Positions 1,343 to 45,967 are shown, counted from the first letter of the stretch. The stretch: DNA of 64,000 bases from a virus (IMGVR_UViG_3300042350_004191:1-64000), one strand, 5' to 3'. The notes: generated by a model from the letters alone, not told the origin. Numbers and translations: made by a program.

Positions 1343-1834
1343 TTATAAAAATTCGTCAGAATTTTTTTTATAATACTCCAAACCTTTGTTTATTAAAGCT
1401 TTTTTTGCTGCTTCAATAACGTCTGGTTTATCTTCCAATTCATTGATTTTAAGCTGACCTTGCCAAAAATCATAAACATATTTTTCTTCTTCGGTTTCTA
1501 CTCCTGAAGAATTTTTAGTTTTTACCATTTCAGGTATTTGAATAGATATGTTTTTAATTTTTATATCTGGATTATCTCCAGCAAATTCACCACCAGGATA
1601 AGTTTGAACTCTACCACGACCTTCAAAATAATCATATTCAGGTTCTTCATAAGTCACATCAGGTGTAATATCAAGTTCACCCGAAACAATATATGTTTGT
1701 CCGTTTATATCTAAAGAAATAAAATCAGGTAATGGATCAGATGTATAACCAATCTCAAGGAATTTACCACGTTCTTCTTTAAGAAGAATTTTTGAATATG
1801 CTTCAGCTAAAAATTTAGAATCTTTGTCTTTCAT
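1343..1834 (-). CDS. Predicted internal head protein with capsid-targeting leader
   Basis: 163 residues. The N-terminus MKDKDSKFLAEAYSKILLKE matches the leader shared by many proteins here and ends in LKE, the T4 prohead-protease type of cut site. The rest is acidic, about 140 residues, with IDITPDVTYEEPEYDYFEGR-type stretches and no recognised domain. By analogy with T4 internal proteins it would be packed into the prohead and trimmed to about residue 21. It lies 15 bases after the next upstream gene. Confidence 0.75.
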   Translation of the reverse strand: MKDKDSKFLAEAYSKILLKEERGKFLEIGYTSDPLPDFISLDINGQTYIVSGELDITPDVTYEEPEYDYFEGRGRVQTYPGGEFAGDNPDIKIKNISIQIPEMVKTKNSSGVETEEEKYVYDFWQGQLKINELEDKPDVIEAAKKALINKGLEYYKKNSDEFL

Positions 1835-1848
1835 TATACATTATTTAC

Positions 1849-2343
1849 TCAGTAAGGTACGCCAAATGCTTCGCAAAGTAATTGAACAGCGTCTTTGTCT
1901 ACCTTATCGTCTGATTGAACAACATCCGTATAAACACCAGAACCATAATCTCCATATGGGTCACTAGCTTCGATATCCGCTGTAATCGTAGGTGTTGGAG
2001 CTTTTACTGTAGTTTTATCTTCGTTTACAGTTTTAATCTTATTCAGAATAAGAGTTAATAGTTGAAGGTTTGAAAAGTCTGAGTTTGTATTTTGTACAAA
2101 TTCAGTAATTTCTTCTTTCGAAAATTTGCCTCTTAATGCTGAAAAGGGATCTTGGTATTGACCGAATACAAAATGAGGAAGATATCTTACAGCAAGCATT
2201 GCACTGTCTTTAATAACATGAAATGCAGAAGCATTTTGAATAGTTACTCCTGTAGCAGGATTAATGCTGGCTTTCTTAGCCGCATTATAAAGCTTGGCTT
2301 CTCTTACTGAACTGTTTGTTAATATTTTTTCAATAAACTTCAT
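1849..2343 (-). CDS. Hypothetical protein
   Basis: 164 residues, ATG at 2343. Mostly helical, with a hydrophobic patch AMLAVRYLPHFVFGQYQDP and an acidic tail. It does not carry the common leader. Its start overlaps the end of the coiled-coil gene upstream by 14 bases, so the four genes from 2721 down to 1343 look like one operon. Family not recognised. Confidence 0.7.
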   Translation of the reverse strand: MKFIEKILTNSSVREAKLYNAAKKASINPATGVTIQNASAFHVIKDSAMLAVRYLPHFVFGQYQDPFSALRGKFSKEEITEFVQNTNSDFSNLQLLTLILNKIKTVNEDKTTVKAPTPTITADIEASDPYGDYGSGVYTDVVQSDDKVDKDAVQLLCEAFGVPY

Positions 2344-2539
2344 TTGTTTCTAAAAACTTTTGATATAATTTTTCAAGATCACGAATGTCGTTTTCTGCTT
2401 CCGTCATTTCTTTTAAAAGACTTTCACATTTTGATTTATCACACGTATTGTATAAATCTAATACTTCGTCTTTCAAGTCTTGTATTTGTAGTTCAATTTC
2501 GCTTAGTTCTTTTAAATCTTTGTATACTTCATTTTCCAT
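2330..2539 (-). CDS. Small coiled-coil protein
   Basis: 69 residues from the ATG at 2539; a TTG one codon upstream is a less likely start. Almost entirely heptad-like, rich in E, K and L (LKELSEIELQIQDLKDEVLD, then EMTEAENDIRDLEKLYQKFL). Likely a dimeric coiled coil. It overlaps both neighbours by a few bases. No specific function can be given. Confidence 0.65.
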   Translation of the reverse strand: MENEVYKDLKELSEIELQIQDLKDEVLDLYNTCDKSKCESLLKEMTEAENDIRDLEKLYQKFLETNEVY

Positions 2540-2721
2540 CAATACCTAATTACTGTTTTTTGTCCAGTTTCAAGGTTAGTGATTTTATATGTTAGTTTTT
2601 GGCTTGGGAAATACCGATCATATTTGGAACGATATGACAAGATTTTCTCATGAGATTTGAAAGGTGACAACATCACTTCATAGAAATCGTTGTCATTAAT
2701 TTTTCTTTCGAGTTTAAACAT
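2539..2721 (-). CDS. Small hypothetical protein
   Basis: 60 residues, ATG at 2721. Mixed, fairly basic composition with a predicted beta-rich pattern (KLTYKITNLETGQKTVIRY at the end). It is four bases downstream of the phosphoesterase gene and overlaps the coiled-coil gene start, supporting an operon. Not recognised. Confidence 0.6.
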   Translation of the reverse strand: MFKLERKINDNDFYEVMLSPFKSHEKILSYRSKYDRYFPSQKLTYKITNLETGQKTVIRY

Positions 2722-2725
2722 ACGA

Positions 2726-3796
2726 TTAAACTTTAAGTGTTTTACCGAGCATTGAAACTACTGCTCTTTTGTTTGTAACCAAAACTGTTTCAACCGAAAA
2801 GTCTTGCTCTTTCTTTGAATAATTTACGATTGAGAATGCATTTTGCCAGTTAGCTGCTGATGCATATAATGGTTGAAGATTACAAGCACATCCATTTTCA
2901 AACACACGAATAATCTTTTCTTTTTGTGTGCCTATGGAGGGGATTCTTTGTGGAGTCATACCAATACGATGTGTATGATTACACATAATAGAAGTAAACC
3001 ATTTTTCAAACAACCCTCTAGCTGAATAACCACCATGTCTTCTGACTACATCACCATGCATGATAACGAAACCTTCAACAATTTCAAGGTAATCAACCAG
3101 CTTTGTCTTATTCCATTCTGCTTGAGGATAGAAAATAGATTGGTATGAAAGTTTTTCTTGGATCTCTGGGAGAACACCCAATTCACCGATACGATCTGAA
3201 AGATAACGCCACCATCTTCCTTCTACACCATCACCAGAATGGTTTGCATTTGTTTCATAAATTTCTGCTCCATAAGAAGCAGTAATTTCGTGAAGTAGAT
3301 ATAAGAACTTGTGGAACTCTTCTCTTTCTTTGAGCAAAGAAGTGTTATAGCGAATATCTTTAGAATATCTGCTAATAGCAAACATGTCTAAAATATCACC
3401 ATTTAGCACAATTGTTGATGGTTTAATTTCATCTACTGCTTGTAAGAATATGTTCAACACATCCCAATCTTCACTGCCAAAGTGAATATCGCCTATTACT
3501 AAAGCATAAGGATTAGCCTCTCTTGTAACTTCTTGACGAATAGGTTTATTAAATTCGATTGGGGCTAATTGTAAAATAAAATCTACCAACTCTTCTTTAT
3601 CTTCAGATGGTATATGAGAGGATGGTTTTTTATAGGGAGTTGGACTATTACTAATTGCTACGTTTTCATTTCTCTTACGATCCATTACCCAATCCCAAAC
3701 TGTTGAGGGTTTTGATCCGAGGATTTCTGCGATTTGTCTGAAGCTAAAACCCTGAGACTTTAACTCCTTTGCTTTTTGGATGTTATTATTTAACAT
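2726..3796 (-). CDS. HTH plus calcineurin-like metallophosphoesterase
   Basis: 356 residues from the ATG at 3796; a TTG three codons upstream is possible. Residues about 6-40 form a helix-turn-helix (SFRQIAEILGSKPSTVWDWV). From about residue 100 come the metal-binding motifs of calcineurin-type phosphoesterases in order: GDIHFG, NGDILD, NANHSG, HGDVVRRHGG, NHTHR. The family cleaves phosphoesters in nucleotides, nucleic acids or proteins using two metals. The fused HTH suggests DNA or protein targeting. The substrate is unknown. All metal ligands appear intact. Confidence 0.85.
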   Translation of the reverse strand: MLNNNIQKAKELKSQGFSFRQIAEILGSKPSTVWDWVMDRKRNENVAISNSPTPYKKPSSHIPSEDKEELVDFILQLAPIEFNKPIRQEVTREANPYALVIGDIHFGSEDWDVLNIFLQAVDEIKPSTIVLNGDILDMFAISRYSKDIRYNTSLLKEREEFHKFLYLLHEITASYGAEIYETNANHSGDGVEGRWWRYLSDRIGELGVLPEIQEKLSYQSIFYPQAEWNKTKLVDYLEIVEGFVIMHGDVVRRHGGYSARGLFEKWFTSIMCNHTHRIGMTPQRIPSIGTQKEKIIRVFENGCACNLQPLYASAANWQNAFSIVNYSKKEQDFSVETVLVTNKRAVVSMLGKTLKV

Positions 3797-3842
3797 ATAC
3801 TCCAAATTTACACTAAACCACGTATAAGGTCAAGTTTTATTT

Positions 3843-4484
3843 TTAGATCTCGACTATATCTAATTTGGCCGTCCAGTTATAGGGTGAACCTGTAGAACCA
3901 CCTTTAACATTAATTTTTAAAGTTTTTCCAGTATTCGTATCATCGGCTTCAATAAAAGCATCAGTATTTAAGTCTTCTCTAGAATGAATCATCTTTGTAG
4001 GTATGCCTACAATACTAACTGTACCTGTAGAATTTCTTTTAATCAATCCTGTAAATTCGATATTTGTAGAATAATTTGAAATATTGTTAACTCCAATAAT
4101 AAAAACTTTAAAGAACCAAGACTTTCCTAAAGACATTGTTAAATAAGAAACAGCATTAATATCAGGAACTAATGGAGTATAAAAGGAATCATTTATTGTT
4201 GTTGCTTTATATATAAAAGTACCTGAACGATTGTTATTTGTACCTAATAAAAAGGGAGCATCCGCGCTTAAAGTTTTTAATACAGTTAAAACACCAGTGT
4301 AATAGCCATCTTTAAAGTTCATAGCTAAAGAACTTACGGACACTTTAAAAGTATCGGGAAATGCTTGTCCGGGACTATTTATGTCAAAAAAGTTTGCAGG
4401 TAATATACATGTTTGCCAATTTGGATCAAATTGAGCCTTTACATAAGGTGTCAGTTCGCTAATTCTTTTAGATGTCGTTGCCAT
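3843..4484 (-). CDS. Putative virion/fibre-associated protein with ISEL N-terminus
   Basis: 213 residues. The N-terminus (KRISELTPYV then PANFFDINSPG) resembles the starts of the proteins at 46343 and 63602 (ISELP..., ISQLN...), a pattern that in phages often marks fibre or neck proteins docking onto the virion. The remainder is Ser/Thr/Asn-rich and beta-like. A perfect TATAAATA box lies 8-15 bases upstream, indicating late expression. Exact role unknown. Confidence 0.6.
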   Translation of the reverse strand: MATTSKRISELTPYVKAQFDPNWQTCILPANFFDINSPGQAFPDTFKVSVSSLAMNFKDGYYTGVLTVLKTLSADAPFLLGTNNNRSGTFIYKATTINDSFYTPLVPDINAVSYLTMSLGKSWFFKVFIIGVNNISNYSTNIEFTGLIKRNSTGTVSIVGIPTKMIHSREDLNTDAFIEADDTNTGKTLKINVKGGSTGSPYNWTAKLDIVEI

Positions 4485-4491
4485 TACAATG

Positions 4492-4499
4492 TATTTATA
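4492..4499 (-). promoter_or_regulatory. T4-type late promoter box TATAAATA
   Basis: Exact TATAAATA on the minus strand just upstream of the gene starting at 4484. In T4 this octamer alone defines late promoters read by sigma gp55. Similar boxes precede many virion-type genes in this window. Confidence 0.6.
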
Positions 4500-4928
4500 T
4501 TACTTGGTAGGTTTACCGTGATAATATCTTTCCAAATAAGTTATTCTTTCAGTTATACCATCTACATCTTTTTGTGTATTATTAATTTGATTGTTTAACC
4601 CTTTGAACTGTTCAGAAAACATTATTTGTTGGGATATTATTGTTTCAAGTTTAGTATTTGCGACTTCAAAACCATTTTTATATAAAGCCTCTTGTCTTTC
4701 AATAACTTTTTCAAAAATTTCTTTTTTAACGTAATTTTCAGATAACCAAGAAGTATAATAACCTATACCTAAAAAGACAAAAGCCGCTATAAGGGGTTTA
4801 ACGAATAAGTTAATAAATGAGCGATGTTTATGTTCAAACGATGATATTCTATCAAAAAAATCAGAAGATTGTTCATCATCATAGCCACGGCGACCATAGA
4901 CTTCTTGTTGTTCAGCTTTATTACTCAT
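4500..4928 (-). CDS. Single-pass membrane coiled-coil protein
   Basis: 142 residues. A charged N-terminus of about 40 residues precedes one transmembrane helix (FVKPLIAAFVFLGIGYYTSW, about 42-62). A long heptad-rich region follows (FEVANTKLETIISQQIMFSE, LNNQINNTQKDVDGITERI). The architecture recalls phage spanin-like or tail-assembly membrane proteins but no family is recognised. A late-type AATAAGTATTA box lies upstream at about 4945. Confidence 0.65.
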   Translation of the reverse strand: MSNKAEQQEVYGRRGYDDEQSSDFFDRISSFEHKHRSFINLFVKPLIAAFVFLGIGYYTSWLSENYVKKEIFEKVIERQEALYKNGFEVANTKLETIISQQIMFSEQFKGLNNQINNTQKDVDGITERITYLERYYHGKPTK

Positions 4929-4995
4929 AATATCGACAATAATACTTATTGTCTATCGAACCAAAAAATTTTAAAATTAAATATAAAATATTTAA

Positions 4996-5139
4996 TTAAA
5001 AGAGTTTAGATGCAATTTTTTTGAAAAAGTCTACTAAAAAATTATCTTTCTTAATTACGGGTTGTTCAACAACAACTTTTTTAGCTGTTGTTTTTTTAGA
5101 TTTATTCTTTTTAGTAGTAATTTTAGTTTGTTTTTTCAT
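4996..5139 (-). CDS. Very basic small protein
   Basis: 47 residues, ATG at 5139, stop at 4996. About a third is Lys, concentrated at the N-terminus (MKKQTKITTKKNKSKKTTAK), with a short amphipathic C-terminal helix (FLVDFFKKIASKLF). It may bind nucleic acid or membrane. The next gene also encodes a short basic protein with a similar end, suggesting a related pair. Confidence 0.5.
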   Translation of the reverse strand: MKKQTKITTKKNKSKKTTAKKVVVEQPVIKKDNFLVDFFKKIASKLF

Positions 5140-5145
5140 ATTATT

Positions 5146-5286
5146 CTATTTATTCTTTTTAAACCAATTTTTTATTGTATTAAAGATGTTTTTAGCTTTT
5201 TTGGCTTTTTTCTTTTTAACCATAACAACCTCTTCCACGATCTCTACAGACTGATCTCTATAATTTCTTCTGTTGCTATATTTCAT
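5146..5286 (-). CDS. Very basic small protein
   Basis: 46 residues, ATG at 5286. It has an acidic-hydrophobic middle (VEIVEEVVMV) followed by a Lys-rich amphipathic C-terminus (KKKKAKKAKNIFNTIKNWFK). It shares this C-terminal style with the adjacent 47-residue protein. Sits three bases after the 279-residue membrane protein gene. Function unknown. Confidence 0.5.
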   Translation of the reverse strand: MKYSNRRNYRDQSVEIVEEVVMVKKKKAKKAKNIFNTIKNWFKKNK

Positions 5287-5289
5287 ATA

Positions 5290-6129
5290 TTAATGTTGAT
5301 ATTTAGCATGTCCTTCTCTTTTTTTAAAGATTTTTTTGATAGTCTTAACAGGAGAAAAGACTTCTTCTGGTTGTTCTATAATATCTTCTTTATCAAATCT
5401 TCTATTAGCTGCTATGTTATATGCTAAAATTAATGCTATAGCCAAAGGATCAAATACAATTATAATTGCTATAGTAAACCATTTAACAACCGTATTAATA
5501 TCTGTGTTAAATAATTCGGCTGCATATTTTAATGTTCCAATATCTTTTTGTTTTCCACTTTGTTTCTGTGCTTCAATGGTTTGTAAATCGAGAGTTTTTA
5601 TCTCGTCAAATATTTGGTTCATTCTTGTGCGGGTTTGTGTTATTTCTTCACCCGCTGCTTTAATGTCTTCATAAATAGGTGCAGCCGACCTACGTGACAT
5701 ACTTGGAAGTCTTTTTTCTTGTGATATACGAGATTGGTTTAATGTTTCTACTCTAGAATTTAAAGATTCTAATTCTTTTTCGAGTATCGCTTTTTGCGAT
5801 ATCAAAAATGTTTGTTGTGATTCTGCTTGAGAATATTCTATTAAACTAGTCTGATAAGCTGCTGTCAAATAACCAAATATACCCATAGATGTTATTCCCA
5901 TCAGGGTTAAAATAGCAACGAGTGTGTAAGTCTTAAGTAAAAGATTGGTCTTGTGCCAATATCTATAAAGAAAGCTTGTGGCGACTATCTTACCAGCTTC
6001 TAAAGCACCAGCCATGATTAATACAGATATATAAGCTCCTGCATATAGAGTAGCTATACCCTTAACAGAAAAATAAGCCGCTACACCAGCAATAATGAAT
6101 GCTGTTAAGGCTAAAATTTTGATAAACAT
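5290..6129 (-). CDS. Multi-pass membrane protein with central coiled coil
   Basis: 279 residues. Two or three N-terminal transmembrane helices (5-25, 30-50, 68-90), then a cytosolic or periplasmic coiled coil of about 110 residues (ILEKELESLNSRVETLNQSR), then a C-terminal transmembrane helix (IAIIIVFDPLAIALILAYNI). Conserved hypothetical membrane proteins of this layout occur in T4-like phages of aquatic bacteria (recalled, not searched). A GATAAATATTA late-like box lies at about 6137-6148. Confidence 0.7.
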   Translation of the reverse strand: MFIKILALTAFIIAGVAAYFSVKGIATLYAGAYISVLIMAGALEAGKIVATSFLYRYWHKTNLLLKTYTLVAILTLMGITSMGIFGYLTAAYQTSLIEYSQAESQQTFLISQKAILEKELESLNSRVETLNQSRISQEKRLPSMSRRSAAPIYEDIKAAGEEITQTRTRMNQIFDEIKTLDLQTIEAQKQSGKQKDIGTLKYAAELFNTDINTVVKWFTIAIIIVFDPLAIALILAYNIAANRRFDKEDIIEQPEEVFSPVKTIKKIFKKREGHAKYQH

Positions 6130-6157
6130 AACTATTTAATATTTATCAAAAAGTAAA

Positions 6158-7750: not shown

Positions 7751-7758
7751 TCTAATAA

Positions 7759-7767
7759 ATACTTATC
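7759..7767 (-). promoter_or_regulatory. Late-type promoter box GATAAGTAT
   Basis: One of the recurrent (A/G)TAA(A/G)TAT boxes placed 8-25 bases above late-gene start codons in this window. Related to the T4 TATAAATA octamer. Confidence 0.5.
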
Positions 7768-7775
7768 TTTTTTTA

Positions 7776-8912
7776 TTAGTGAATAATCAAATATGTTCCT
7801 CGAACATCTCGTCTACTAGCAGACAAGTCAGATTCACCGGGTAAAACAATAACGTTATACTGTCCAGCATCACCTTTAGGAGTGTCTTTTAGTTCGTCAA
7901 TTGTTAATAAAGTTTTTGGATCAATATTATATTTTTGAGAAATAATGCTTTTTGTTGCATCAACATTATTATATTTCCATTTTTTATCGTCACCTATTTC
8001 AATATATTTGAAACGAGTAATTGCATAAAGTTCTGGTTCTTTTACTTTGTCCTCAACATTTACTATGTACGAAACTTTATCTTTTTTAGGATCGATTAAT
8101 TTTTCTTGTTCTTTTCTTGCACCATATGAGAAATTAAAAATAACATTTTCTGGTGGATTTGGAAAAGCTTTGGTCATCTCTACTTCTTTTGTATAAATGT
8201 AATGATCAACCATGGGCGTGTTCTTTACAATATCCATGACGATATTAAAGAATTTTGGAGATAATAAATCGCCAGAATCATTCCAACGAATTTGTACTCT
8301 TTTGTTTCTATGTTTTACGGCGGCTAATTTTATTTCTGCTTCCAATTGACCTTGAAAACTTTCAGGATCATTGAACAAATAATTTAGTGTTCTGTTTTGA
8401 AACATAGAAACTTCTGGAAAGAGTGTATAAGATCCATGTTTTGCATAACAAACTAATTGACATGCACCAGCGGATGGACATGTATCTACAATTTTGAATT
8501 CTCCAGTATCCTCATCTATTACCAAACCTTTTAATGCTGGTAAAGTAGTATTATAAAATACTGTATCTTCAGTAGAACTCTTTTTCATTTTTGCGTTTTG
8601 GCGCAAGAGTTCTTCGGGTCTTTTAGTTAAAATATTTTTAAAAGCATCCAGATCTACAGTTTCTCCGCTTGGTGTTTGGACCAAGACTCTTTGTGCAATA
8701 GAAGCATGAATATGAGGCATATGCAAGTAATCTTGCTTCTGTGTTTTAGGGTCTACTTTTTTGACTCTTTTCTTTTCGACTACTCTATTGATATAATCAA
8801 CAAGTTTTTGGGAATCGATGGGTCTTGTTGTTCCCATTGAAGAATCGAAGGCTTCTCCAAGACGAACACCCTCATACAAACCTTCCAGTAAAATTTGATC
8901 TTTTGAACGCAT
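7776..8912 (-). CDS. gp88-like protein with capsid-targeting leader
   Basis: 378 residues. Leader MRSKDQILLEGLYEGVRLGE (1-20) ends in LGE, fitting the prohead-protease site. The body carries DTCPSAGACQLVCYAKHG (C145, C151, C155), then VQIRWNDSGDLLSP and YIYTKEVEM, the pattern of the phage 'gene product 88' family (recalled). That family has no established biochemical function. The triple-Cys cluster suggests metal or Fe-S binding. The leader predicts that this protein is packed in the head. Confidence 0.75.
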   Translation of the reverse strand: MRSKDQILLEGLYEGVRLGEAFDSSMGTTRPIDSQKLVDYINRVVEKKRVKKVDPKTQKQDYLHMPHIHASIAQRVLVQTPSGETVDLDAFKNILTKRPEELLRQNAKMKKSSTEDTVFYNTTLPALKGLVIDEDTGEFKIVDTCPSAGACQLVCYAKHGSYTLFPEVSMFQNRTLNYLFNDPESFQGQLEAEIKLAAVKHRNKRVQIRWNDSGDLLSPKFFNIVMDIVKNTPMVDHYIYTKEVEMTKAFPNPPENVIFNFSYGARKEQEKLIDPKKDKVSYIVNVEDKVKEPELYAITRFKYIEIGDDKKWKYNNVDATKSIISQKYNIDPKTLLTIDELKDTPKGDAGQYNVIVLPGESDLSASRRDVRGTYLIIH

Positions 8913-12108: not shown

Positions 12109-12816
12109 ATGAAAGATAGGGATCATAAATTATTGGAAGAAGCTTATAAAAAAGTTTATTTAAAAGAAGAAGAAGAGAAATATAACATGGACGAAGTTCC
12201 TAGTGACCAAGAAATGGAACGTGCATTGGAAAAATATTACCAAGAACACGAAAACCCAGACGAACTTACCAAAAAACTTTTCACATTAAAATCTTTAAAA
12301 AGTTTCTTTGAAGAAATGAAACAAACAAGAGATAGTTGGAATTCTGCATATCCAAAAGATAGAAAAACTACAATAGCTGATGCAATAAACAGCATATATT
12401 CCGATACATATAAAGATGTACATGGAATAAGAATGACTCCGAATGTAACAGGAAGGTTCGCTCTTTTCCCTGAATACCATCCACTTATTTCCATGGCATT
12501 TTCTTATTTCAGGCTTTATCGAGAAGATGAATTAACCAGAGACGAAAGAAATCTAGGGTACGAAAACCGCGAAGTACTTTATGATTTAGAATTGAAGATA
12601 GATCGTTTTATTGATGATATAAATGAAGATGCTGATCTTCCTAGTATAGCCAAACAAATATTCGATATGATCGAATCGGCAAATTTTAAACAGGACAACG
12701 ACAATTTTTACAAAAATAATTTGTTGGATTCCGTGAGAACCTCTATAAAGAGAGCCTCAAATCTTGATGAGAACGAAAGAAAATATTTGTTGGCAAATTT
12801 ACCAGAAAAAATTTAA
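12109..12816 (+). CDS. Predicted internal head protein with capsid-targeting leader
   Basis: 235 residues on the plus strand. Leader MKDRDHKLLEEAYKKVYLKE ends in LKE. The body is helical and very charged (EMERALEKYYQEHENPDELT) with no recognised domain. A TGTAAGTATTA late box lies at 12094-12104, only a few bases above the start. Tail-to-tail overlap with the gene at 12813. Confidence 0.75.
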   Translation: MKDRDHKLLEEAYKKVYLKEEEEKYNMDEVPSDQEMERALEKYYQEHENPDELTKKLFTLKSLKSFFEEMKQTRDSWNSAYPKDRKTTIADAINSIYSDTYKDVHGIRMTPNVTGRFALFPEYHPLISMAFSYFRLYREDELTRDERNLGYENREVLYDLELKIDRFIDDINEDADLPSIAKQIFDMIESANFKQDNDNFYKNNLLDSVRTSIKRASNLDENERKYLLANLPEKI

Positions 12817-13082: not shown

Positions 13083-13283
13083 TCAACCACCATTTCCACC
13101 GCCACCGTCTCCACCACCAGCAGCACCATCTCCTGCACCAGTGCCAAAACCATAGCCAGCACCATACCAAGGATATCCCCATGTTCCATAGGGTCCGATT
13201 CTTCTGCGACCAGAAGAAGACTTTCTTTTCTTCTTGGTCGTTCTTTTTCTCTTTTCCAACAAAAATTCTTTAAAGGAGATCAT
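13083..13283 (-). CDS. Small leader-bearing Gly-rich protein
   Basis: 66 residues. The start MISFKEFLLE closely resembles the T4 capsid-targeting sequence (MKTxxEF... type) and ends with LLE. A basic stretch (KRKRTTKKKRKSSSGRRR) and a Gly-rich tail (GYGFGTGAGDGAAGGGDGGG) follow. It may be a DNA-binding internal head protein. A TAAGTATA box at 13288-13295 lies back-to-back with the TATAAATA of the next gene. Confidence 0.6.
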   Translation of the reverse strand: MISFKEFLLEKRKRTTKKKRKSSSGRRRIGPYGTWGYPWYGAGYGFGTGAGDGAAGGGDGGGGNGG

Positions 13284-13312: not shown

Positions 13313-13981
13313 GTGAGAAATAAAGATCAAATACTTTTAGAAAACTTATACAATTCCATCTTAGAAGCAAAAGTGGTAATGGAAGACCCTAAAAGTCTGA
13401 TCGGTCAAATTGTCGATGTCCATCCAGCAATTTCTGGCACACCAGAAAGCGATCCTATGCTTTATATGGCATGGTCCATAAAATCCCTAGCAACAGGAAA
13501 AGTTATCCATAATACCAGAACACTATTGTTAAAAGACTGTACGGCAATAATCGACCATGATAAAGTCAAAAATTTTCAACTCAACCCAAATAAAGGAACA
13601 AAAACCCCTAACCTATTAGTAAGAGGCACAGTATTAGACATAGACTTTGATGTGTCTAAAATATCTAATATCCTATCAAATGGAGATTGGAAATCAATAA
13701 CTTATAATCCACACAAACACAGAGAATATGTATACAAAGACAAACTACCCGAATGGTGGAACACTGACGAAAGATTTCCCCATGATAATCCAAGAATCCC
13801 AGACCTAGCTAAAAAAAGATTGGAAGCATCAGAAGAAAGATCTAAAGAAAATTTCTCATATAATGAGCTTAGTAAAAAAGACCCAAATGAAAACATTTCA
13901 AAGTTTTCCTGTGAAAATATACTTTTAAAACAATACCTTAAAAGAGGAGAAGACTATATGTGGGTAAAAGGTGTATTATAA
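13313..13981 (+). CDS. Predicted internal head protein with capsid-targeting leader
   Basis: 222 residues, GTG start. Leader (M)RNKDQILLENLYNSILEAK has the shared pattern and an ILE site. The body has mixed composition (SLIGQIVDVHPAISGTPESD, GTVLDIDFDVSKISNIL) and no recognised domain. The GTG was chosen because it gives the leader exactly and sits below a perfect late box. Confidence 0.7.
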   Translation: MRNKDQILLENLYNSILEAKVVMEDPKSLIGQIVDVHPAISGTPESDPMLYMAWSIKSLATGKVIHNTRTLLLKDCTAIIDHDKVKNFQLNPNKGTKTPNLLVRGTVLDIDFDVSKISNILSNGDWKSITYNPHKHREYVYKDKLPEWWNTDERFPHDNPRIPDLAKKRLEASEERSKENFSYNELSKKDPNENISKFSCENILLKQYLKRGEDYMWVKGVL

Positions 13982-38225: not shown

Positions 38226-38768
38226 TCAGACTATTTGAAAGTGTCGAACATCATTTGGATCGTCAGACTTGACCCCGAAAATATTTGCGAGATAAAAACC
38301 ACCTTTCTTATTCTCGACATAAACTGGTTTAGGGATATTTAAATGAATTAAAAGCTTTTTGAGAAGGTCAACTCGATCTGAATTGAAACCAAATCCATCA
38401 GAATCAATAAATGATTTCCAGAAAGAAACATATGATACATCCATCTCACTTGTCTTACCTAATATGATACCCAGACTATCAACATCAATATTCTCGAAAG
38501 CTGATCCACCTTTACCAAAAACAAACAGACCATCCCCTTCTATTCCTTTTCTTTCTCTGACTTTTCTTAATAGATAAGAATGAGAAGGCATTGTCTCATC
38601 TTCCAGATGAGCATAAAATATCGTTTTGTTATCTTCATCAAATGCGAACAAGTATGCTTTTTCGGAAAAGAAATCTCTTGGGTATTGCCTACCATCCAAA
38701 CCAATAATCTTGTCTGGATTTTCTTTTAATAAAAATTCTTTTTCGTATAAAAATTTTACAAAATTCAT
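38226..38768 (-). CDS. Leader-like hypothetical protein
   Basis: 180 residues from the ATG at 38768; the longer ORF crosses the terminator. The start MNFVKFLYEKEFLLKE resembles a capsid-targeting leader and contains LKE. The body has FSEKAYLFAFDEDNKTIFYA and SYVSFWKSFIDSDGFGFNSD and no recognised domain. Could be a head protein; alternatively the start is coincidental. Confidence 0.6.
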   Translation of the reverse strand: MNFVKFLYEKEFLLKENPDKIIGLDGRQYPRDFFSEKAYLFAFDEDNKTIFYAHLEDETMPSHSYLLRKVRERKGIEGDGLFVFGKGGSAFENIDVDSLGIILGKTSEMDVSYVSFWKSFIDSDGFGFNSDRVDLLKKLLIHLNIPKPVYVENKKGGFYLANIFGVKSDDPNDVRHFQIV

Positions 38769-39349: not shown

Positions 39350-39352
39350 AAA

Positions 39353-39445: not shown

Positions 39446-39504
39446 AGCTTATTACTTTAGCTTCTTTTGGGTGTTTTGTCAATCTTTTTTGTAAGTAATA
39501 ATAT

Positions 39505-39714
39505 ATGAGATCAAAAGATGACATTATGTTACAAGAAGCTTATGAATTAATTCTTGAAGGTAAAAAGAAAAAAGAAACAAATAAAAAGAAACCCAATCCT
39601 TGGGCTGTTTGTAATGCTTCAACTGGTGGAAAAAAGAAAAATCCAGAAAAATTTGAAAGTTGTGTAAAAGGTGTTAAAAAGAAAACAGGATTTAAAGATA
39701 AAAAGAAAAAGTAA
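39505..39714 (+). CDS. Leader-bearing Lys-rich internal head protein
   Basis: 69 residues. Leader MRSKDDIMLQEAYELILEGK with an ILE site. The rest is a very basic domain (PNPWAVCNASTGGKKKNPEK, FESCVKGVKKKTGFKDKKKK) seen in other phages as a small Cys-containing protein (recalled). Good candidate for a DNA-binding protein packed in the head. A GTAAGTAATA box lies about 12 bases above the start. The stop abuts the next start. Confidence 0.7.
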   Translation: MRSKDDIMLQEAYELILEGKKKKETNKKKPNPWAVCNASTGGKKKNPEKFESCVKGVKKKTGFKDKKKK

Positions 39715-40059
39715 ATGAAATCAAAAGACGATAAAAATCTTTTAGAGGCTTATTCAACAGTTTTAAAAGAAAATAGCTGTGGGATCATGGGTGATATGAT
39801 CGTTGCTCCAACCGAAACCGGACATCCCGAACAAACAGATTCTTCAAGAGAACAAGAAGAAACAAGTATGGATGAAAATAATGCTTCAGTCATTTTACAA
39901 AAAGCAAATGTTTTAGTATCCTTATTACAAAGCGGAGTTCGCTTAGATCCTTGGATGCAACAAAAAATTACTCTTGCTGCTGATTATCTTACAAGTGTAA
40001 CCGATACAGCAACATTCGATCAGCAAAAGAATCAACACCAACCTCATCATGAAATCTAA
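39715..40059 (+). CDS. Leader-bearing internal head protein
   Basis: 114 residues. Leader MKSKDDKNLLEAYSTVLKEN contains LKE. The acidic middle (PEQTDSSREQEETSMDENNA) is followed by a helical segment (SVILQKANVLVSLLQSGVRL). It begins on the base after the previous stop and overlaps the next gene by 11 bases, so the three are co-translated. Confidence 0.7.
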   Translation: MKSKDDKNLLEAYSTVLKENSCGIMGDMIVAPTETGHPEQTDSSREQEETSMDENNASVILQKANVLVSLLQSGVRLDPWMQQKITLAADYLTSVTDTATFDQQKNQHQPHHEI

Positions 40060-40420
40060 AGACGATAAAAATTTACTCGAAGCATACGAATCTGTTTCTA
40101 AATTACAAGTAGAAGCAGAATCTAAAATATATCAACCCAAACAAAATATTGCGGGAGGAACTAGCACATCTTTAAAAGACTTAACATATGCAAAAAAAGC
40201 TGAATATGACGAAGATTTAGCTGAATGGATCAAAACTCGTATATCCAGAGAGCTTCCACAAGATTTAGATGTTAGAGAAGATCTGGTTAAACTTTATAAA
40301 AAACTTAGCGCGAATCAATTGGGTAAAGAAATTACAAAACCCAACGATGAAAAAGAATCTCAAGAAACCCTTACACGCGCACAATATGCAATGTCTGGTT
40401 ATAGTGGGCCAAATTCATAA
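40049..40420 (+). CDS. Leader-bearing internal head protein
   Basis: 123 residues. The first 13 residues (MKSKDDKNLLEAY) are identical to those of the preceding gene, pointing to duplication. The cut site is less clear (SVSKLQVEAES). Helical charged body (DEDLAEWIKTRISRELPQDL). Third of the three co-oriented leader genes. Confidence 0.7.
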   Translation: MKSKDDKNLLEAYESVSKLQVEAESKIYQPKQNIAGGTSTSLKDLTYAKKAEYDEDLAEWIKTRISRELPQDLDVREDLVKLYKKLSANQLGKEITKPNDEKESQETLTRAQYAMSGYSGPNS

Positions 40421-40834
40421 CACATAGTTCCCGTCATTGTCTGTCCAGATAACTTTTTTAAAATTAAAAAAACGAAGGAGATTCTCACATGACATACATG
40501 GTTTTGACAATGCTATTTCTTGCTTTCTGTTATACCTTATATTAATAAGGGTGCATTTCTTGGTGTCTATATTCGTAAGCTTTCTGAGCTTATTGATTGC
40601 ATCGAATTCACTACAGGTAAACTTTTCTCCCGATATATCTTTACCTGTCCTTGCACATAACTTTTTGTTTCTTAGATTTATTGGATGAGTCTTTCTACAA
40701 TTATGTCCTATGGATATAATTCTATTCTTATAAAGGATGAAAGAGAAATGGTTGCATCGCATTTCTGGATCAGGATCTATTAAAGACTTAGATATTTCCT
40801 CGATCCTTTTATATTTTTTTATATTCGATCCCAT
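40415..40834 (-). CDS. Deaminase-fold protein with Cys in place of His
   Basis: 139 residues from the ATG at 40834. FTCSEFDAINKL (C74-S-E76) and KPCMSCENLL (P112, C113, C116) give the zinc-site layout of the cytidine-deaminase superfamily, with Cys instead of the usual His, as in some CDA-type enzymes. The Glu that activates water is present. It overlaps the canonical dCMP deaminase upstream by 26 bases. Substrate unknown. Confidence 0.65.
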   Translation of the reverse strand: MGSNIKKYKRIEEISKSLIDPDPEMRCNHFSFILYKNRIISIGHNCRKTHPINLRNKKLCARTGKDISGEKFTCSEFDAINKLRKLTNIDTKKCTLINIRYNRKQEIALSKPCMSCENLLRFFNFKKVIWTDNDGNYVL

Positions 40835-41219
40835 AAAATTCAAAGATGTCTATAGCTTTCATGTCATGGTCATATAATTCCGAATATATAACTTTCTTGA
40901 TGCCATAAGCAGCAATCATAGTAGCACAATTAGAACAAGGTAAGAGTGTGCAAGCCAACAAACTACATTCTCCACGTTTAATAAGAGAAAGTAAATTAGC
41001 TTCTGCATGAATCATGTATGGTCTTCTTTCATTTCGATCTAACCAAAAATTGTTATCTACGTTTTTTCCTGTAGCCAATCCATTGTAAGCAACACCTATG
41101 ACACGATTATCAAAATCCAAAGCACAAGCACCAACTTTTTTAAATTGATCTTCAGATCTTAAAGCTGCTACTTCTGCTATTTTCATAGCATACTCTTCCC
41201 ATGATAATCTAGACTTCAT
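40809..41219 (-). CDS. Deoxycytidylate deaminase-like enzyme
   Basis: 136 residues. IHAEANLL (H71, E73) and LLPCSNCATMI (P94, C95, C98) are the full zinc and catalytic motif of dCMP deaminases. The reaction converts dCMP to dUMP, feeding thymidylate synthesis during phage replication; T4 gene cd is the analogue. It overlaps the downstream variant deaminase and the upstream gene by a few bases, indicating co-translation. Confidence 0.85.
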   Translation of the reverse strand: MKSRLSWEEYAMKIAEVAALRSEDQFKKVGACALDFDNRVIGVAYNGLATGKNVDNNFWLDRNERRPYMIHAEANLLSLIKRGECSLLACTLLPCSNCATMIAAYGIKKVIYSELYDHDMKAIDIFEFYGIEYKKI

Positions 41220-41988
41220 TCGCTATTTCAATAAATGCATGAAACAATTTTTCGTTTTGAAAAAGATTACAAGCAGTAAACCCTTGCCACATGTTCCAAC
41301 TGAAATTCAGTCTTTCTTTAAATCCTTTTATTTTGTTTCCACCGTTTTTACTCCCATTGATAATATTATCAAGAATAATGTTTGTAATAGTCCATAAATT
41401 ATTATTTTCATTTTCTATTTTTGTAGAATTTAACAAAGAAAAAGAATTGAAACTATATGGTTTTTTCTTTTTTTTGTATCGAATATCTGTTGCATAGTTT
41501 GCATAACCCATCATTTCCATATTGGTTAGTATTCTGTTTTTTGCTTCATTAATAGAATTATTAATGGATTCATAATATACTCGACAATGATCTAATTTTT
41601 TCGCAAGTTCTTCTATGGACAAATTATTTTTTTTATGAATAAAAACATTATCTTGCATAAAATATTTTGGTGTTATAAAATCTACTTTGGTAGTTGGATT
41701 ATGCCAACCAATTAAATAACTCAAGTCTTGTTTTGTATTCCAAATATAAATTTGGGGATACCCTTGCTGCAATGCAACATCATCGCTACATGTATTTTCA
41801 TGTACCAATACAGCACAGTGTTTCTTAAAATCGGTGCTGCCATGTGACACAGCATCCTTTAATACCCAACCTTTACCTAAAGCTATTTTTAAAATATCCC
41901 TAGTGGATGTATACAACCCTTCTTTGGAGGGTAAGCTAATAGTAGAAGCTTTGTCTGATGCATCTTTAATTGTTAGCGGTTGTATCAT
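41209..41988 (-). CDS. Hypothetical protein, weak DUF932-like pattern
   Basis: 259 residues, ATG at 41988. LYTSTRDILKIALGKGWVLK then FKKHCAVLVHEN, YPQIYIWNTKQDLSYLIGWH resemble the N-terminal layout of DUF932-type phage proteins, but the canonical NSHDG motif is absent (here NTKQD). The C-terminal half is helical. It overlaps the metzincin gene start and the dCMP deaminase. Function unknown. Confidence 0.55.
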   Translation of the reverse strand: MIQPLTIKDASDKASTISLPSKEGLYTSTRDILKIALGKGWVLKDAVSHGSTDFKKHCAVLVHENTCSDDVALQQGYPQIYIWNTKQDLSYLIGWHNPTTKVDFITPKYFMQDNVFIHKKNNLSIEELAKKLDHCRVYYESINNSINEAKNRILTNMEMMGYANYATDIRYKKKKKPYSFNSFSLLNSTKIENENNNLWTITNIILDNIINGSKNGGNKIKGFKERLNFSWNMWQGFTACNLFQNEKLFHAFIEIANEV

Positions 41989-42478
41989 TTAACAGAAAGT
42001 TTTCAATTAATCTTTTGTAATAAAGATAGCTAATCTTATCATTAACTTTTAATTTATCAAGCATTGATGGTTTAGCTGTAGATAAAATTTTATCATTCAT
42101 TATAGAACCTTCTTCCGTAGTGTGTCCTAGACCTAACATATGTCCAGCTTCATGTGCAACTGCTCCTGAAAGATATTCTCCTTTCAATACATGATCGTAT
42201 TCTTTATTTAAAAGAACCGTTTTTGTTCTAGGTGAATATTGTGCAACCCAATCCGGTTTTTTAATTCGGCTTGGATCTGCATGTTCAATTATCAAATATG
42301 CACTATCAATTGATTCTGTTCTTTTAAAAGCCAAACGATTTGTGGTCCAATAATCTAAACCTCTGGCTATTTCTTCTGGATATGGACCATCATAATAATA
42401 TTCTATCAAAAGAGATTTTTCTCTTTTGAATTCAAAATAGAATAAAACACCTATAGCTATGATTAGCAATAATTTCAC
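41966..42478 (-). CDS. Membrane-anchored metzincin zinc protease
   Basis: 170 residues, GTG start. A hydrophobic N-terminus (KLLLIIAIGVLFYFEF) anchors or exports it. HEAGHMLGLGH (109-119) gives three zinc His and the catalytic Glu, and SIMND supplies the Met-turn (M127), together diagnostic of matrixin-type metzincins. It would cut proteins outside the cytoplasm, perhaps at lysis or entry. The promoter's -10 ends seven bases before the GTG, so the mRNA may be leaderless. Confidence 0.85.
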   Translation of the reverse strand: MKLLLIIAIGVLFYFEFKREKSLLIEYYYDGPYPEEIARGLDYWTTNRLAFKRTESIDSAYLIIEHADPSRIKKPDWVAQYSPRTKTVLLNKEYDHVLKGEYLSGAVAHEAGHMLGLGHTTEEGSIMNDKILSTAKPSMLDKLKVNDKISYLYYKRLIENFLLNDTTANN

Positions 42479-42484
42479 AAAACA

Positions 42485-42513
42485 AGTATGGCTATTTTTA
42501 CTTGTATTGTCAA
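42485..42513 (-). promoter_or_regulatory. Promoter of the metzincin gene
   Basis: TTGACA, 17-bp spacer ATACAAGTAAAAATAGC, CATACT. The expected start site falls on or next to the GTG. Confidence 0.55.
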
Positions 42514-42516
42514 ACC

Positions 42517-43797
42517 TTATTTAAGTAATTCTTTGATAAAAGCAGCAGCCCATTTCTGAGCTTCGCCTGTGTTAGCGGCTCCACGGATATTCCCATCAAT
42601 AAAATTCATAACAGGCTTCATTTGTTCATCGGATATACTGCTTAATTTTTCAGCAGCTTTCGCGTATTGTTCAGGACTTAAATCTAGATTTTTAGCAGCA
42701 TTAACAAATGCTGGTGAGGGTCCATTAGACCAGTCACCCTGACCATTAATTCCTTTTTCAAATAAAGCTGAATCAAATTTGTTTTTAGCTACATCAAGTG
42801 GAGATTCTGGATTAAATGGTGTTTCATGGTATCTTTCGAAATAAGAATCAGGATTTAACCCTGCATCTACGGGTTGATCGATCAACTCAGCACTGGGTTC
42901 ATTAGCTGTCAGTCCCATCTCACTTTCTAGACCATTAATATATTTGGAAAGATAATCAATACTAACCCCTAATATAGGTGCAGCTACAGCAAGAATAGCT
43001 GCTTGTTTAGCGACTTTCTTTGGATCAGGTCTTTCTCCATTTAAAACATCTGTTGCTGCTTTTCTTAATGCACCAGCAGTTGCAGCTTTTAACATTGTTG
43101 CAGGAATACCAGCTATGCCAGCAATTGATGCTAATGCTCCACCAGCAGCAGCACCTAAAGCCAATAATGGTGCAGCCTTACCAACGAACTCTACTCCTCT
43201 TCCAATCGAATGTCTAATATCACTTAATTTAGATTCTGTTGGTTTAATTGAATACTCTGATTCTAATTTTGCGATCATTCCATCAATTTGTTTTTTTACC
43301 GAATCATCAGCACCGGAAGTTGTTCCTAAGTCCCTCTGAAGTTCTTTTAGGTGTGAACCAACTTTCTTTTGGAATATCTCAAATCTTTTGTTCACTCTTT
43401 GTGATTGAACATTGCTTTCTCCTGTGGGTGTTTTTTCTCCCATAGCAAATCTTTTCCATCCAGAAACATTAGAAGCAATTCTAGAACCTAATTTTTCCTC
43501 AACATAAGACTCTTCTTTGATTTCTTCTTGTGAAAAAGACTGTTCTATTTCTTTTTGGTCAGTAAAATCTTTAGGAGATTTTTTAATTTCGTCAAAAAAT
43601 TTATTGATTAACTCTCTATATTTTTCTTGTGCAAGTAATTCAGCCTCTAAATTTTCTATGGCCTTTTTTAATTCGTCTACATTATCTTCTATTTTTTGTT
43701 CGAGATCTGTAGGTAAACTATTTTCAACTTCCTCTTTTAAAAGAACTCGTTTAAAATAAATTTCTTGTAATGATTTAAATTCTTCTGTCTTGTTCAT
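42517..43797 (-). CDS. Large leader-bearing virion protein
   Basis: 426 residues. Leader-like start MNKTEEFKSLQEIYFKRVLL followed by KEE (site LKE). Then a coiled coil (IENLEAELLAQEKYRELINK), and an Ala/Gly-rich hydrophobic middle (AAPLLALGAAAGGALASIAG and further) that may cross a membrane, for example after ejection. The C-terminal region is helical. Overlaps the next gene start by four bases. Candidate internal or ejected protein. Confidence 0.7.
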   Translation of the reverse strand: MNKTEEFKSLQEIYFKRVLLKEEVENSLPTDLEQKIEDNVDELKKAIENLEAELLAQEKYRELINKFFDEIKKSPKDFTDQKEIEQSFSQEEIKEESYVEEKLGSRIASNVSGWKRFAMGEKTPTGESNVQSQRVNKRFEIFQKKVGSHLKELQRDLGTTSGADDSVKKQIDGMIAKLESEYSIKPTESKLSDIRHSIGRGVEFVGKAAPLLALGAAAGGALASIAGIAGIPATMLKAATAGALRKAATDVLNGERPDPKKVAKQAAILAVAAPILGVSIDYLSKYINGLESEMGLTANEPSAELIDQPVDAGLNPDSYFERYHETPFNPESPLDVAKNKFDSALFEKGINGQGDWSNGPSPAFVNAAKNLDLSPEQYAKAAEKLSSISDEQMKPVMNFIDGNIRGAANTGEAQKWAAAFIKELLK

Positions 43798-44831
43798 AAT
43801 AAATTACATTCTTTCAAAAATTCATTAAAGGGATTATATGATTCGTTTTTATATGAATACCTTGTTTTAGTTGGCCCGACTTTAGTTTCTGTTCTTGTCA
43901 CTCCAGATGGTTTTTTAGTTGTTTTAACTGGGGCGTTTTTTTGTTTAGACCATTTTTGGTTTAGTGTTTCTATCAAATTAGGATTTTTAATTATTTCTGC
44001 TTTTTTTGTTTTTCCTTTTTTACTGGATAAAACTACCCAATTTTTACCATCATACACATATTTGAAAATACCATGTTCAACAGTATCATTTTTCTTTGGG
44101 GATTCTATTGCTGTTTTTGATGTACCTCTTACAGGTGTAATTTCACCTTTAGGTTTTTTTGGTTGTTCTTGTGTTTTTTGTTGTGGAACTTCTTCAGTTT
44201 TTTGTTGAGTTGGTTCTGGTGTTTTATTTGAGTTATCTAAATCTTCTTTTCTAAATAAAGGTTTGCCGCTTACAATAGTAGATTTGATCTTACCTGTTGC
44301 TGCTTTATTCTGTAATTCTGTTTCAGATATTTTTAAATAATCTGCTGCACCTTTTATATCAAGATAACCTTGTACATTAGTTGTTGGTTTGGAAGTTTCT
44401 GGTGTCGGTTCACTAGTTGGTTCTGGTTGTGAAGTTGTTTTTACTTCCGGTGTGGTTGTTGAAGTTTGTGTGGGATTAGTTAAAAATTTCTCAAGATTTT
44501 CTATTTCTTTTAATCTTTGTGCTATAATTGGAAAATCTTTTTGAAGCGTATCGGGATTGGGATCTACTTTAAAAAGTTTCAAATCATTTTTGAAATCAGC
44601 AATTTCTTGTTGGACTTTCTGAACAAAGGATTTTAGTAAGGAACCTTGTTGGGCTTTTGCGTACTCTGTTCTTGCACTTGGACGATCAGCCGTATCGCCT
44701 GTAAGCTTTCCTCCAATATTTTTCATCAGTGTACCAGCACCTTGTTTGATACCAGCACCCTGACCTTTTAATCTGTCCCAAATCCCCTCTTGGTATAATT
44801 GTTCCAAGAGCAAATCATCATTATTTCTCAT
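43794..44831 (-). CDS. Leader-bearing protein with HTH domain
   Basis: 345 residues. Leader MRNNDDLLLEQLYQEGIWDR. Low-complexity Thr/Pro/Lys regions flank a HTH_17/excisionase-like domain (IKGAADYLKISETELQNKAA then GKPLFRKEDLD, about 155-200). The C-terminus is basic and Ser/Tyr-rich. A DNA-binding domain in a leader-bearing protein suggests packaging with, or delivery to, DNA. A TATAAGTATTA box lies at about 44843-44853. Confidence 0.7.
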   Translation of the reverse strand: MRNNDDLLLEQLYQEGIWDRLKGQGAGIKQGAGTLMKNIGGKLTGDTADRPSARTEYAKAQQGSLLKSFVQKVQQEIADFKNDLKLFKVDPNPDTLQKDFPIIAQRLKEIENLEKFLTNPTQTSTTTPEVKTTSQPEPTSEPTPETSKPTTNVQGYLDIKGAADYLKISETELQNKAATGKIKSTIVSGKPLFRKEDLDNSNKTPEPTQQKTEEVPQQKTQEQPKKPKGEITPVRGTSKTAIESPKKNDTVEHGIFKYVYDGKNWVVLSSKKGKTKKAEIIKNPNLIETLNQKWSKQKNAPVKTTKKPSGVTRTETKVGPTKTRYSYKNESYNPFNEFLKECNLL

Positions 44832-44842
44832 ACTTATGTATT

Positions 44843-44853
44843 AATACTTATAC
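44843..44853 (-). promoter_or_regulatory. Late-type promoter box TATAAGTATTA
   Basis: Twelve bases above the start of the HTH-containing protein; a second copy CATAAGTA follows at 44831-44838. Confidence 0.5.
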
Positions 44854-44878
44854 ATAAGTAAGAGTAAAAATGTAATTT

Positions 44879-45106
44879 TTAGTTGTCGATTCTATACAGA
44901 GCCAGAGAATCTCTCCGATAGGGGGGATAATCAGGATATCTGGGAATTACTCTGTAATGTGCAGACTCAACAGGAGGATAACCTGATGGTGTTACATACG
45001 TTTGACCATTGCCGTTGTTAGTTGAGTAAGATCTGGTCGTATGATATGCACAGCCAGAAGACAGCACACAACCTACGGTTAGCACAATATGGAATATGTT
45101 TTTCAT
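44879..45106 (-). CDS. Lipoprotein
   Basis: 75 residues. Signal MKNIFHIVLTVGCVLSSGC with lipobox LSSGC, then a Tyr/Pro/Ser-rich mature part (YPPVESAHYRVIPRYPDYPP). Likely an outer-membrane-directed phage lipoprotein such as an exclusion factor or spanin partner; not determined. Driven by a conserved-spacer promoter. Confidence 0.7.
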   Translation of the reverse strand: MKNIFHIVLTVGCVLSSGCAYHTTRSYSTNNGNGQTYVTPSGYPPVESAHYRVIPRYPDYPPYRRDSLALYRIDN

Positions 45107-45114
45107 ACTCCACC

Positions 45115-45143
45115 AGACTATAGGGAATTACTTGTAAGGTCAA
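45115..45143 (-). promoter_or_regulatory. Conserved-spacer promoter of the lipoprotein
   Basis: TTGACC, 17-bp spacer TTACAAGTAATTCCCTA, TAGTCT. It overlaps the stop codon of the gene at 45140. Confidence 0.65.
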
Positions 45144-45967
45144 GAAATTTTTATATCACCAGTGTAGTTTTCTGGTTCTTTAATTCCTGTAGGACCTTTT
45201 TTCTCTATTAAATCATTTAAAAAATACCACCTTGGGTATAAAGTTCCTTGTCCAACTTGGATAAGTCCTGTTGGTTTTCCTCTGTTATTATCTAGTCTAA
45301 AGGCTTTTCCTAACTTAATATCTGGAGCATTTTCTGTTTTTGTAATTTTGAATTTGTGCAAATAAGTTGAATTATCAGTTTCAAAAATAAACCAAGTTGC
45401 ATACTGTAAGTCTGGATAAATTTCTTCATTGATAATTTGGCTTTGATAATTTATTATATTATCGAAAGATTCATTATTTGGTCTTGGGTCTGTTAATTGT
45501 ACCCAAAATGTTCCAGTCTGTGAAATAATTCTTTTAACATCAATATCATTTTTTTTATTTTCGTCCTGATTTACTATCTGATTTAATTGGTTATTAAACA
45601 AATTTAAAAGAGGATTTTGTTGAATATCTACAATTTCACCTACAAGACCTTCAAGGGTTCCAACTTTTTCCATTATTACTGCTGTAGGGGAAAATATTCT
45701 GGCTGTTGAAGTTTCTTTTGTTGTTGTTGAAGTGCTTTGCGGCGTTTTGCTTTCTTGTAAAGCTTTATTAGCCATATCGCTTGTTACAAATTTCAATTCA
45801 AACTTTTTCTGTTCTAAATTTTTTGGAAGCTGAGTTTTTACATCTTTATTATTTTGAAATTTTTTCATGAAATCTGGAAGTCTTGTTAGATTAAAATTGT
45901 ATGCTCCTTTTGCTGCATCGAAAATATCTCCAAGAGCTTCTTGAATTACTGAATCGAATTTATTCAT
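45140..45967 (-). CDS. Virion-type protein with short leader
   Basis: 275 residues. The start MNKFDSVIQEALGDIFDAAK has an IQE site and partly fits the leader pattern. The body is Asn/Gln-rich with PTAVIMEKVGTLEGLVGEIV and IYPDLQYATWFIFETDNSTY. A TAAATATAC box lies just upstream, divergent from the plus-strand virion module. Not recognised further. Confidence 0.6.
   Translation of the reverse strand: MNKFDSVIQEALGDIFDAAKGAYNFNLTRLPDFMKKFQNNKDVKTQLPKNLEQKKFELKFVTSDMANKALQESKTPQSTSTTTKETSTARIFSPTAVIMEKVGTLEGLVGEIVDIQQNPLLNLFNNQLNQIVNQDENKKNDIDVKRIISQTGTFWVQLTDPRPNNESFDNIINYQSQIINEEIYPDLQYATWFIFETDNSTYLHKFKITKTENAPDIKLGKAFRLDNNRGKPTGLIQVGQGTLYPRWYFLNDLIEKKGPTGIKEPENYTGDIKIS

Follow-up and report, generated by a model that had tools for sequence, protein, structure and literature searches.

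Diverged capsid-targeting-like leaders on unrelated proteins of an uncultured clade of T4-like giant phages

The 64,000-nucleotide stretch IMGVR_UViG_3300042350_004191:1-64000 (hereafter, the window) belongs to the 210.6-kb genome of a T4-like giant phage from an uncultured clade, and eight of its genes encode otherwise unrelated proteins that begin with the same short N-terminal sequence, designated here leader I. It is very likely that leader I is a diverged capsid-targeting sequence (CTS), which would load a variable set of proteins into the phage head, be trimmed from them and permit their delivery; we infer the packaging, cleavage, injection and action of each body (the protein behind the leader) from sequence comparisons. 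The strongest evidence is the natural exchange of leader I with a T4-type CTS at or beside the predicted cleavage glutamate. The leader thus probably marks a large, mostly unknown arsenal of injected proteins.

A preliminary description of the window had proposed a single capsid-targeting-like leader on at least ten proteins. Every open reading frame that it named is present, and the leader is sustained for eight of them: 1343 (-), 7776 (-), 12109 (+), 13313 (+, GTG start), 39505 (+), 39715 (+), 40049 (+) and 43794 (-), where minus-strand genes are named by their left-end coordinate. Their N-termini follow the pattern M[KR]x[KRN]DxxxLxxxY and continue into a hydrophobic stretch, the typical form being M[KR]xKDxxLLExxY..(I/V)L. 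A 21-residue profile of these eight proteins, applied to every start codon in the 210.6-kb genome, matched the same eight genes, with the next candidate (190097) at E 0.3. Leave-one-out profiles recovered seven of the eight at E 2e-8 to 2e-6 and 43794 at E 0.0095; the membership of the latter is backed by homologues starting MKRKDDLLLE(Q/N)LYQEG. The remaining four genes of the proposed family (13083, 38226, 45140 and 42517) do not match the profile. Three of these, which had been listed as weak cases, carry a T4-type leader (leader II), so that two leader types occur in place of the single one first described; 42517, rejected as a leader I gene by the profile, remains uncertain. By pattern, leader II is a putative T4-type CTS, its genes fitting the T4 sequences MKTYQEFIAE and MKTFKEF, and leader I, with a sequence of its own, appears to have the structural properties of a CTS, fitting those of T4 only by length and register. 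The window genes concerned are listed below; sites are residues bearing [L/I]xE, late motif denotes the late-promoter-like motif described further on, and a slash separates leader from body.

1343..1834, minus strand: leader I protein, 163 amino acids (aa), MKDKDSKFLAEAYSKILLKE; sites at 11 and 20; late motif upstream.
7776..8912, minus strand: leader I protein, 378 aa, with a GP88-domain body (PF17338), MRSKDQILLEGLYEGVRLGE; sites at 10 and 20.
12109..12816, plus strand: leader I protein, 235 aa, MKDRDHKLLEEAYKKVYLKE; sites at 10/11 and 20; late motif.
13083..13283, minus strand: leader II small basic protein, 66 aa, MISFKEFLLE/KRKRTTKKKRK; late motif.
13313..13981, plus strand: leader I protein, 222 aa, GTG start, MRNKDQILLENLYNSILE; sites at 10 and 18; body belonging to an eight-protein body family.
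38226..38768, minus strand: leader II protein, 180 aa, from an internal ATG at 38768, MNFVKFLYEKEFLLKE/NPDK; late motif.
39505..39714, plus strand: leader I small basic protein, 69 aa, body isoelectric point (pI) 10.2; sites at 11 and 18; late motif; first gene of a three-gene leader array.
39715..40059, plus strand: leader I protein, 114 aa, MKSKDDKNLLEAYSTVLKE; sites at 11 and 19; second gene of the array.
40049..40420, plus strand: leader I protein, 123 aa, MKSKDDKNLLEAYESV; site at 11 only; third gene of the array.
42517..43797, minus strand: possible leader protein, 426 aa, MNKTEEFKSLQEIYFKRVLLKE; N-terminus conserved but divergent, its pattern being retained in a 37%-identical homologue (MNTHQDIKTLNDLYYKRVFLKE).
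43794..44831, minus strand: leader I protein, 345 aa, MRNNDDLLLEQLYQEG; site at 10; late motif; a helix-turn-helix-like stretch lies inside the body.
45140..45967, minus strand: leader II-like protein, 275 aa, MNKFDSVIQE/ALGD; [L/I]xE at residue 10; late motif.

Each body was then searched for homologues lacking leader I, which revealed exchange for a T4-type CTS on the same body in three body families and in a more distant fourth; these are natural swaps, not an experiment. In the first (body L163), MKNKDQILLENLYTE/MAYPVSFSFEEF, with a MAYPV junction, is matched in several phages by MKSFKQYIKE/MAYPVSFSFEEF, a leader closely matching the T4 sequence MKTYQEFIAE, and the bodies are 83-93% identical. 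The second pair (MKNKDQIILENLYESI/SNDVS versus MTFKEYFLE/SNDVS) is 78% identical, and in both of these pairs similarity at the DNA level starts at or beside the junction. In the third, MNRDHKLLEEAYRQVRLFE/SPE is paired with MISFKEYFLLE/SPE at approximately 40% identity, and window gene 38226 is a distant member, being a remote homologue of proteins with leader I (L201) or with MISFKEYFLLE (L229). The L163 body also occurs in cultured phages behind further leaders, namely MKQVRLSQFLSE/APLP in XacN1 (LSE/A) and MKIYNLYSTLLE/APLP in Slicko01 (LLE/A). Across the four leader types of this aligned family, the swaps single out the initial Met-Lys (M1, K2) and the final Glu as the only invariant leader residues. 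Such natural swaps put the T4 capsid-targeting model to an independent test in evolution.

Two further small proteins (L204:13131-13400, minus, and L195:2221-2490, minus) begin with a worn-down leader I and, immediately behind it, a T4-type leader (MKNKDQISTKNISFKDFFLE), an arrangement that resembles a leader exchange in progress.

The putative cleavage motif is strongly concentrated at the end of the leader, as had been claimed beforehand. All eight leader I proteins of the window have [L/I]xE at residue 10/11 and six have it again at 18-20, 40049 and 43794 presenting only the first site. Counting one protein per body cluster (n = 83), the glutamate lies at residue 10 in 68, at 11 in 22 and at 18-20 in 42, and past residue 20 no position bears the motif in more than 3 of the 83. 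Between residues 15 and 24 it occurs in 44/83 clusters versus 16.3 ± 3.4 in shuffled sequences (0 of 2000 shuffles reach the observed value), and a site at 9-12 or 17-21 is found in 79/83 clusters compared to 32/184 other genes of the source genome. The leader ends in [L/I]xE at about residue 10-19. T4 propeptides are 10-19 residues long and are cut after L/I-x-E, ten residues being sufficient for targeting (PMC9026906); the T4 record, analyzed as a control, presented E10 in IPII and IPIII and E19 in IPI, in agreement with the positions seen here. The later [L/I]xE had been taken as the cleavage site; it stands as a candidate, but in leader I the LLE at residue 10/11 is at least an equal one.

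As proposed, the 20-residue motif serves as a finder, recovering leader genes in the source genome and in its relatives. Leader I heads at least 202 IMG/VR proteins, which, clustered after leader removal, define 83 body clusters (48 of them singletons); a short N-terminal leader is hence common to otherwise unrelated proteins, and the bodies sort into different families, as had been stated for the window. The exact DNA pattern for M[KR]xKDQI[LF][LF]E occurs in 96 IMG/VR stretches, often several times consecutively, and leader genes reach 15 on a single 66-kb IMG/VR contig. In 257 Gb of bacterial and archaeal genomes, the same pattern matched once, in a chance-like 32-codon frame. Leader I genes number 8-9 in the near-complete relatives G021 and G028, and five in G007. 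Among 30 records related through the major capsid protein (MCP), 12 have leader I; because the other 18, many of them fragments, lack it, the leader was rejected as a mark of all relatives. Direct tblastn searches of cultured phages with the leader and with one leader protein of the NPWAVC family returned no match and thus identified no cultured phage that carries leader I itself; a search for literature mention of KDQILLE found none. Synonymous codons vary in the leader about as much as in the bodies, indicating conservation at the protein level and selection on the amino acids, and leading us to reject a recent DNA duplication as the source of the common start.

The preliminary description had also predicted a gp21-type prohead protease nearby, and an S77 gene was indeed found 4 kb past the window end, within a T4 head operon. 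Its protease domain (PF03420, E 3e-30) spans 67957-68478, and the source genome thus combines an S77 protease with a T4-type head module comprising the following genes, the last four of which lie beyond the window in the same genome.

52048..53973, plus strand: gp20-type portal of the T4-like head module.
67951-68622: gp21-type S77 protease.
68866-69753: gp22-like scaffold protein.
69825-71261: gp23-like major capsid protein.
71607-72527, plus strand: leader II protein directly behind the capsid gene.

The source capsid protein is at most 34% identical to those of cultured phages, chiefly cyanomyoviruses, and has hundreds of relatives in IMG/VR. In 80/80 relatives, this gp23 homologue has [L/I/V]xE at the T4-equivalent end of the propeptide, so that protease specificity appears unchanged in the clade. 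The S77 protease was detected in 12 of the 13 leader-bearing records searched, each of at least 106 kb. The gene right behind the capsid gene has a T4-type leader in seven phages: the source protein starts MSLFKDFYTKVIQE/A, and its counterparts in six relatives start MNLFNxFYxxI(I/L)xE/A or MNLFNDYYKDLVNE/M. A homologue of this protein, encoded elsewhere in another phage, starts with leader I (MRNKDTILLENAYNTISE/M).

In L245 (G028:C1 ~147000-148570, minus strand) and in G032, the gp21-type protease is a 614-aa frame with an intein-like insert, which starts CITSSASILCEDGW, ends VYCVSVPNENFYCMDNGKCSWTGN and lies directly after the conserved ELNHP motif. Beyond the window in the source genome, seven genes with T4-type N-termini (71607-72527 plus, 74051-74581 minus, 120488-121363 minus, 122326-122694 minus, 180118-180441 plus, 180451-180735 plus and 197326-197496 plus) present [L/I]xE within about 20 residues, less clearly in 74051, and a late-promoter-like motif upstream, and are candidates for packaged proteins.

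Among cultured phages, bodies homologous to the tagged ones carry a leader in the S77-positive XacN1, Slicko01 and Vibrio K566, and are leaderless in Dickeya JA29, Salmonella Sen-NF, Streptomyces Gilgamesh (the homologue of window gene 7776) and Tunturi_5, where S77 is not detectable. Salicola SCTP-2, with an S77 protease and the N-terminus MNLNE/SLSA, is ambiguous. ORF170 of XacN1, whose trimmed form would start APLPDD, goes unmentioned in the main text of the paper on the XacN1 virion proteome. In the Alishewanella phage Slicko01 (L265, record 85888-89441), five adjacent genes (WGH49657-WGH49661) have a common leader of their own, MK[IF]xxLYESLLEEG, the L163 homologue standing at the end of the array; three of the five have ART-like (ADP-ribosyltransferase-like) bodies with (V/I)(V/L)(F/Y)H(A/S)T, and the record annotates them only as hypothetical proteins.

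The upstream regions of the leader genes point to late expression. The late-promoter-like motif TAA[AG]TA, which resembles T4-type late promoters, is no more than 40 bp away from the start in 58/82 leader genes versus 13.6 ± 3.6 in shuffled sequences, and equally near in 11/24 genes of the structural region compared to 1/23 in the 15-38 kb region. In the source genome, nine of 12 candidates have it, the other three being downstream genes of operons. Together with the leader swaps and the association of protease and leader in cultured phages, these motifs lend support to the T4-like capsid-targeting reading put forward in the preliminary description.

Most bodies have no Pfam match. Those that do include GP88 (window 7776), GNAT acetyltransferases, a tRNA nucleotidyltransferase with an HD domain and DUF5661, with weak matches to PARP/ART and to mycobacteriophage L5 gp82 (window 13313). 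For the L145-type body, both Pfam matches (PARP, E 1.1e-4; ART-PolyVal, E 0.006) fall under the curated cut-off, and the top fold matches of a low-confidence model are ART-like at E 0.47 or higher. Two body families were modelled (pLDDT ~60) and fold searches gave no significant match; the ART call consequently rests on weak sequence matches and motif resemblance. The L163 body looks kinase-like by eye only (glycine-rich loop, Lys, D..N, DFG-like), with no Pfam match. Late non-structural enzymes of these kinds would make best sense as cargo for the next cell.

A small lysine-rich module, NPWAVCN(A/K)STGGKK..PEKFE.CVK.VKKK, forms the whole body or the C-terminal part of several leader proteins (window 39505-39714, L093, L137, L143, L153 and L166), and is possibly a DNA-binding cargo.

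We propose that, late in infection, the tagged proteins would be made alongside the head proteins, and that the N-terminal helix (approximately residues 1-17) would bind the prohead core, trapping them inside the prohead. The gp21-type S77 protease would then cut after [L/I]xE at 10/11 and/or 18-20, freeing mature bodies that would stay in the head, be delivered with the DNA into the next host cell and act there before phage gene expression. The bodies would behave as exchangeable cassettes, gained, lost, or having leader I swapped for a T4-type leader on the same body.

That the leader targets another virion part (tail tube, baseplate or neck) or a phage assembly site instead of the head appears unlikely. 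The tail-fibre and structural region (window 39-46 kb) does have several leader genes close by, and late motifs would suit any virion protein, but leader I is exchanged with a T4-type CTS on the same bodies, heads a homologue of the product of the gene that directly follows the capsid gene and ends in a head-protease motif that the capsid protein also keeps, and the homologous bodies are leaderless in S77-negative phages. The tagged proteins might alternatively be parts of the prohead core or scaffold that are degraded or expelled at maturation, since T4 core proteins also have several L/I-x-E sites and are removed (PMC9026906), and many bodies are small, acidic and of unknown function. We consider this improbable for the set as a whole: 83 unrelated, fast-changing families would be unexpected of core parts, as would enzymes such as tRNA nucleotidyltransferases, GNAT acetyltransferases and PARP/ART-like proteins, and [L/I]xE falls to background level past residue 20. 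Some of the tagged proteins, such as 71607-72527, could nonetheless be core proteins. Finally, the tandem arrangement of leader genes is a setting in which 5' ends are often duplicated, and the common start might be a remnant of duplication or recombination, or a translation-initiation element, with no targeting role. The likelihood of this is very low, because the amino acids are kept while synonymous codons vary as they do in the bodies, leader I gives way to another protein leader bearing the same cut motif, and the position of [L/I]xE is kept.

Several observations weigh against leader I being a CTS that delivers head cargo. The leader I profile has no match in T4, and what leader I has in common with the T4 CTS is its length, register and cut motif, not its residue-by-residue sequence. 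The site at residue 10 cannot be separated from the conserved helix, and its enrichment is thus not by itself proof of cleavage; residues 9-12 are devoid of [L/I]xE in 6/83 clusters, and the leader I member of the first swap pair has YTE, not [L/I]xE, at the junction. The S77 gene was not seen in the leader-bearing G033 (a 124-kb contig that may be a fragment), and leader I is missing from some S77-positive relatives, such as G020 (177 kb). The bodies are not mainly basic, unlike those of T4 (median pI 5.6, with 24% above pI 8), although Alt shows that the T4 set does not consist only of small basic proteins, making such a body typical but not defining. We also found no virion proteomics for the source clade.

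A further signature in the neighbourhood is that of window 41966-42478 (minus strand), which encodes an N-terminal hydrophobic stretch and HEAGHMLGLGH, the signature of a matrixin-type zinc metalloprotease.

Injected phage proteins act before any phage gene expression, and few are known because they have no common sequence beyond a short tag. Leader I brings to light at least 83 more families in phages that have no close cultured relatives, and points to tRNA nucleotidyltransferases and acetyltransferases as possible packaged cargo. We lean slightly towards the broader view that lineage-specific, interchangeable tags for head loading are a general feature of S77-protease phages, and that the system of this clade is exceptionally large, with dozens of cassettes per pangenome and pre-made proteins delivered at DNA entry (tRNA end-repair, acetylation, ADP-ribosylation, kinase-like and unknown activities). 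If so, the tag alone would expose unexplored counter-defence and take-over proteins.

Taken together, these features place leader I beside known systems for head loading. Like the CTS of T4 IPI, IPII and IPIII and the Alt propeptide, it is N-terminal, 10-19 residues long and found on otherwise unrelated proteins, with [L/I]xE at 10 or 19, a gp21-family protease in the genome and variable cassettes behind it, and window gene 13083 and the swap partners are T4-like themselves (e.g. MKSFKQYIKE versus MKTYQEFIAE). It differs in having a conserved sequence of its own (M[KR]xKDQILLExxYxxIL), the conserved part of which is longer, and in heading a far larger repertoire (83 families sampled) that is often not basic and includes enzymes. 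Alt is an enzyme delivered to the host whose N-terminal propeptide is removed by gp21, and one leader I family appears PARP/ART-PolyVal-like, although the ART assignment is weak here (PARP E below the cut-off, fold search not significant). The Ip loci of T-even phages were, according to a later report, found through their signal sequence (Repoila 1994, cited in Silas 2025, PMC12373910), and T4 Ip1-3 have recently been shown to inhibit distinct Type IV restriction enzymes (PMC12373910). The finding principle is the same, a common packaging leader there revealing hypervariable injected proteins, but those comprise at least 10 Ips in coliphages, whereas the proteins described here come from a clade that is uncultured and has another leader, long arrays and different bodies. 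The array of Slicko01 has a different leader sequence, but its phage is cultured and combines an S77 protease with a common leader ending in LxE and one homologous body. The principle is known from T4; what is notable here is the scale of the tagged repertoire and the evolutionary test that the swaps provide.

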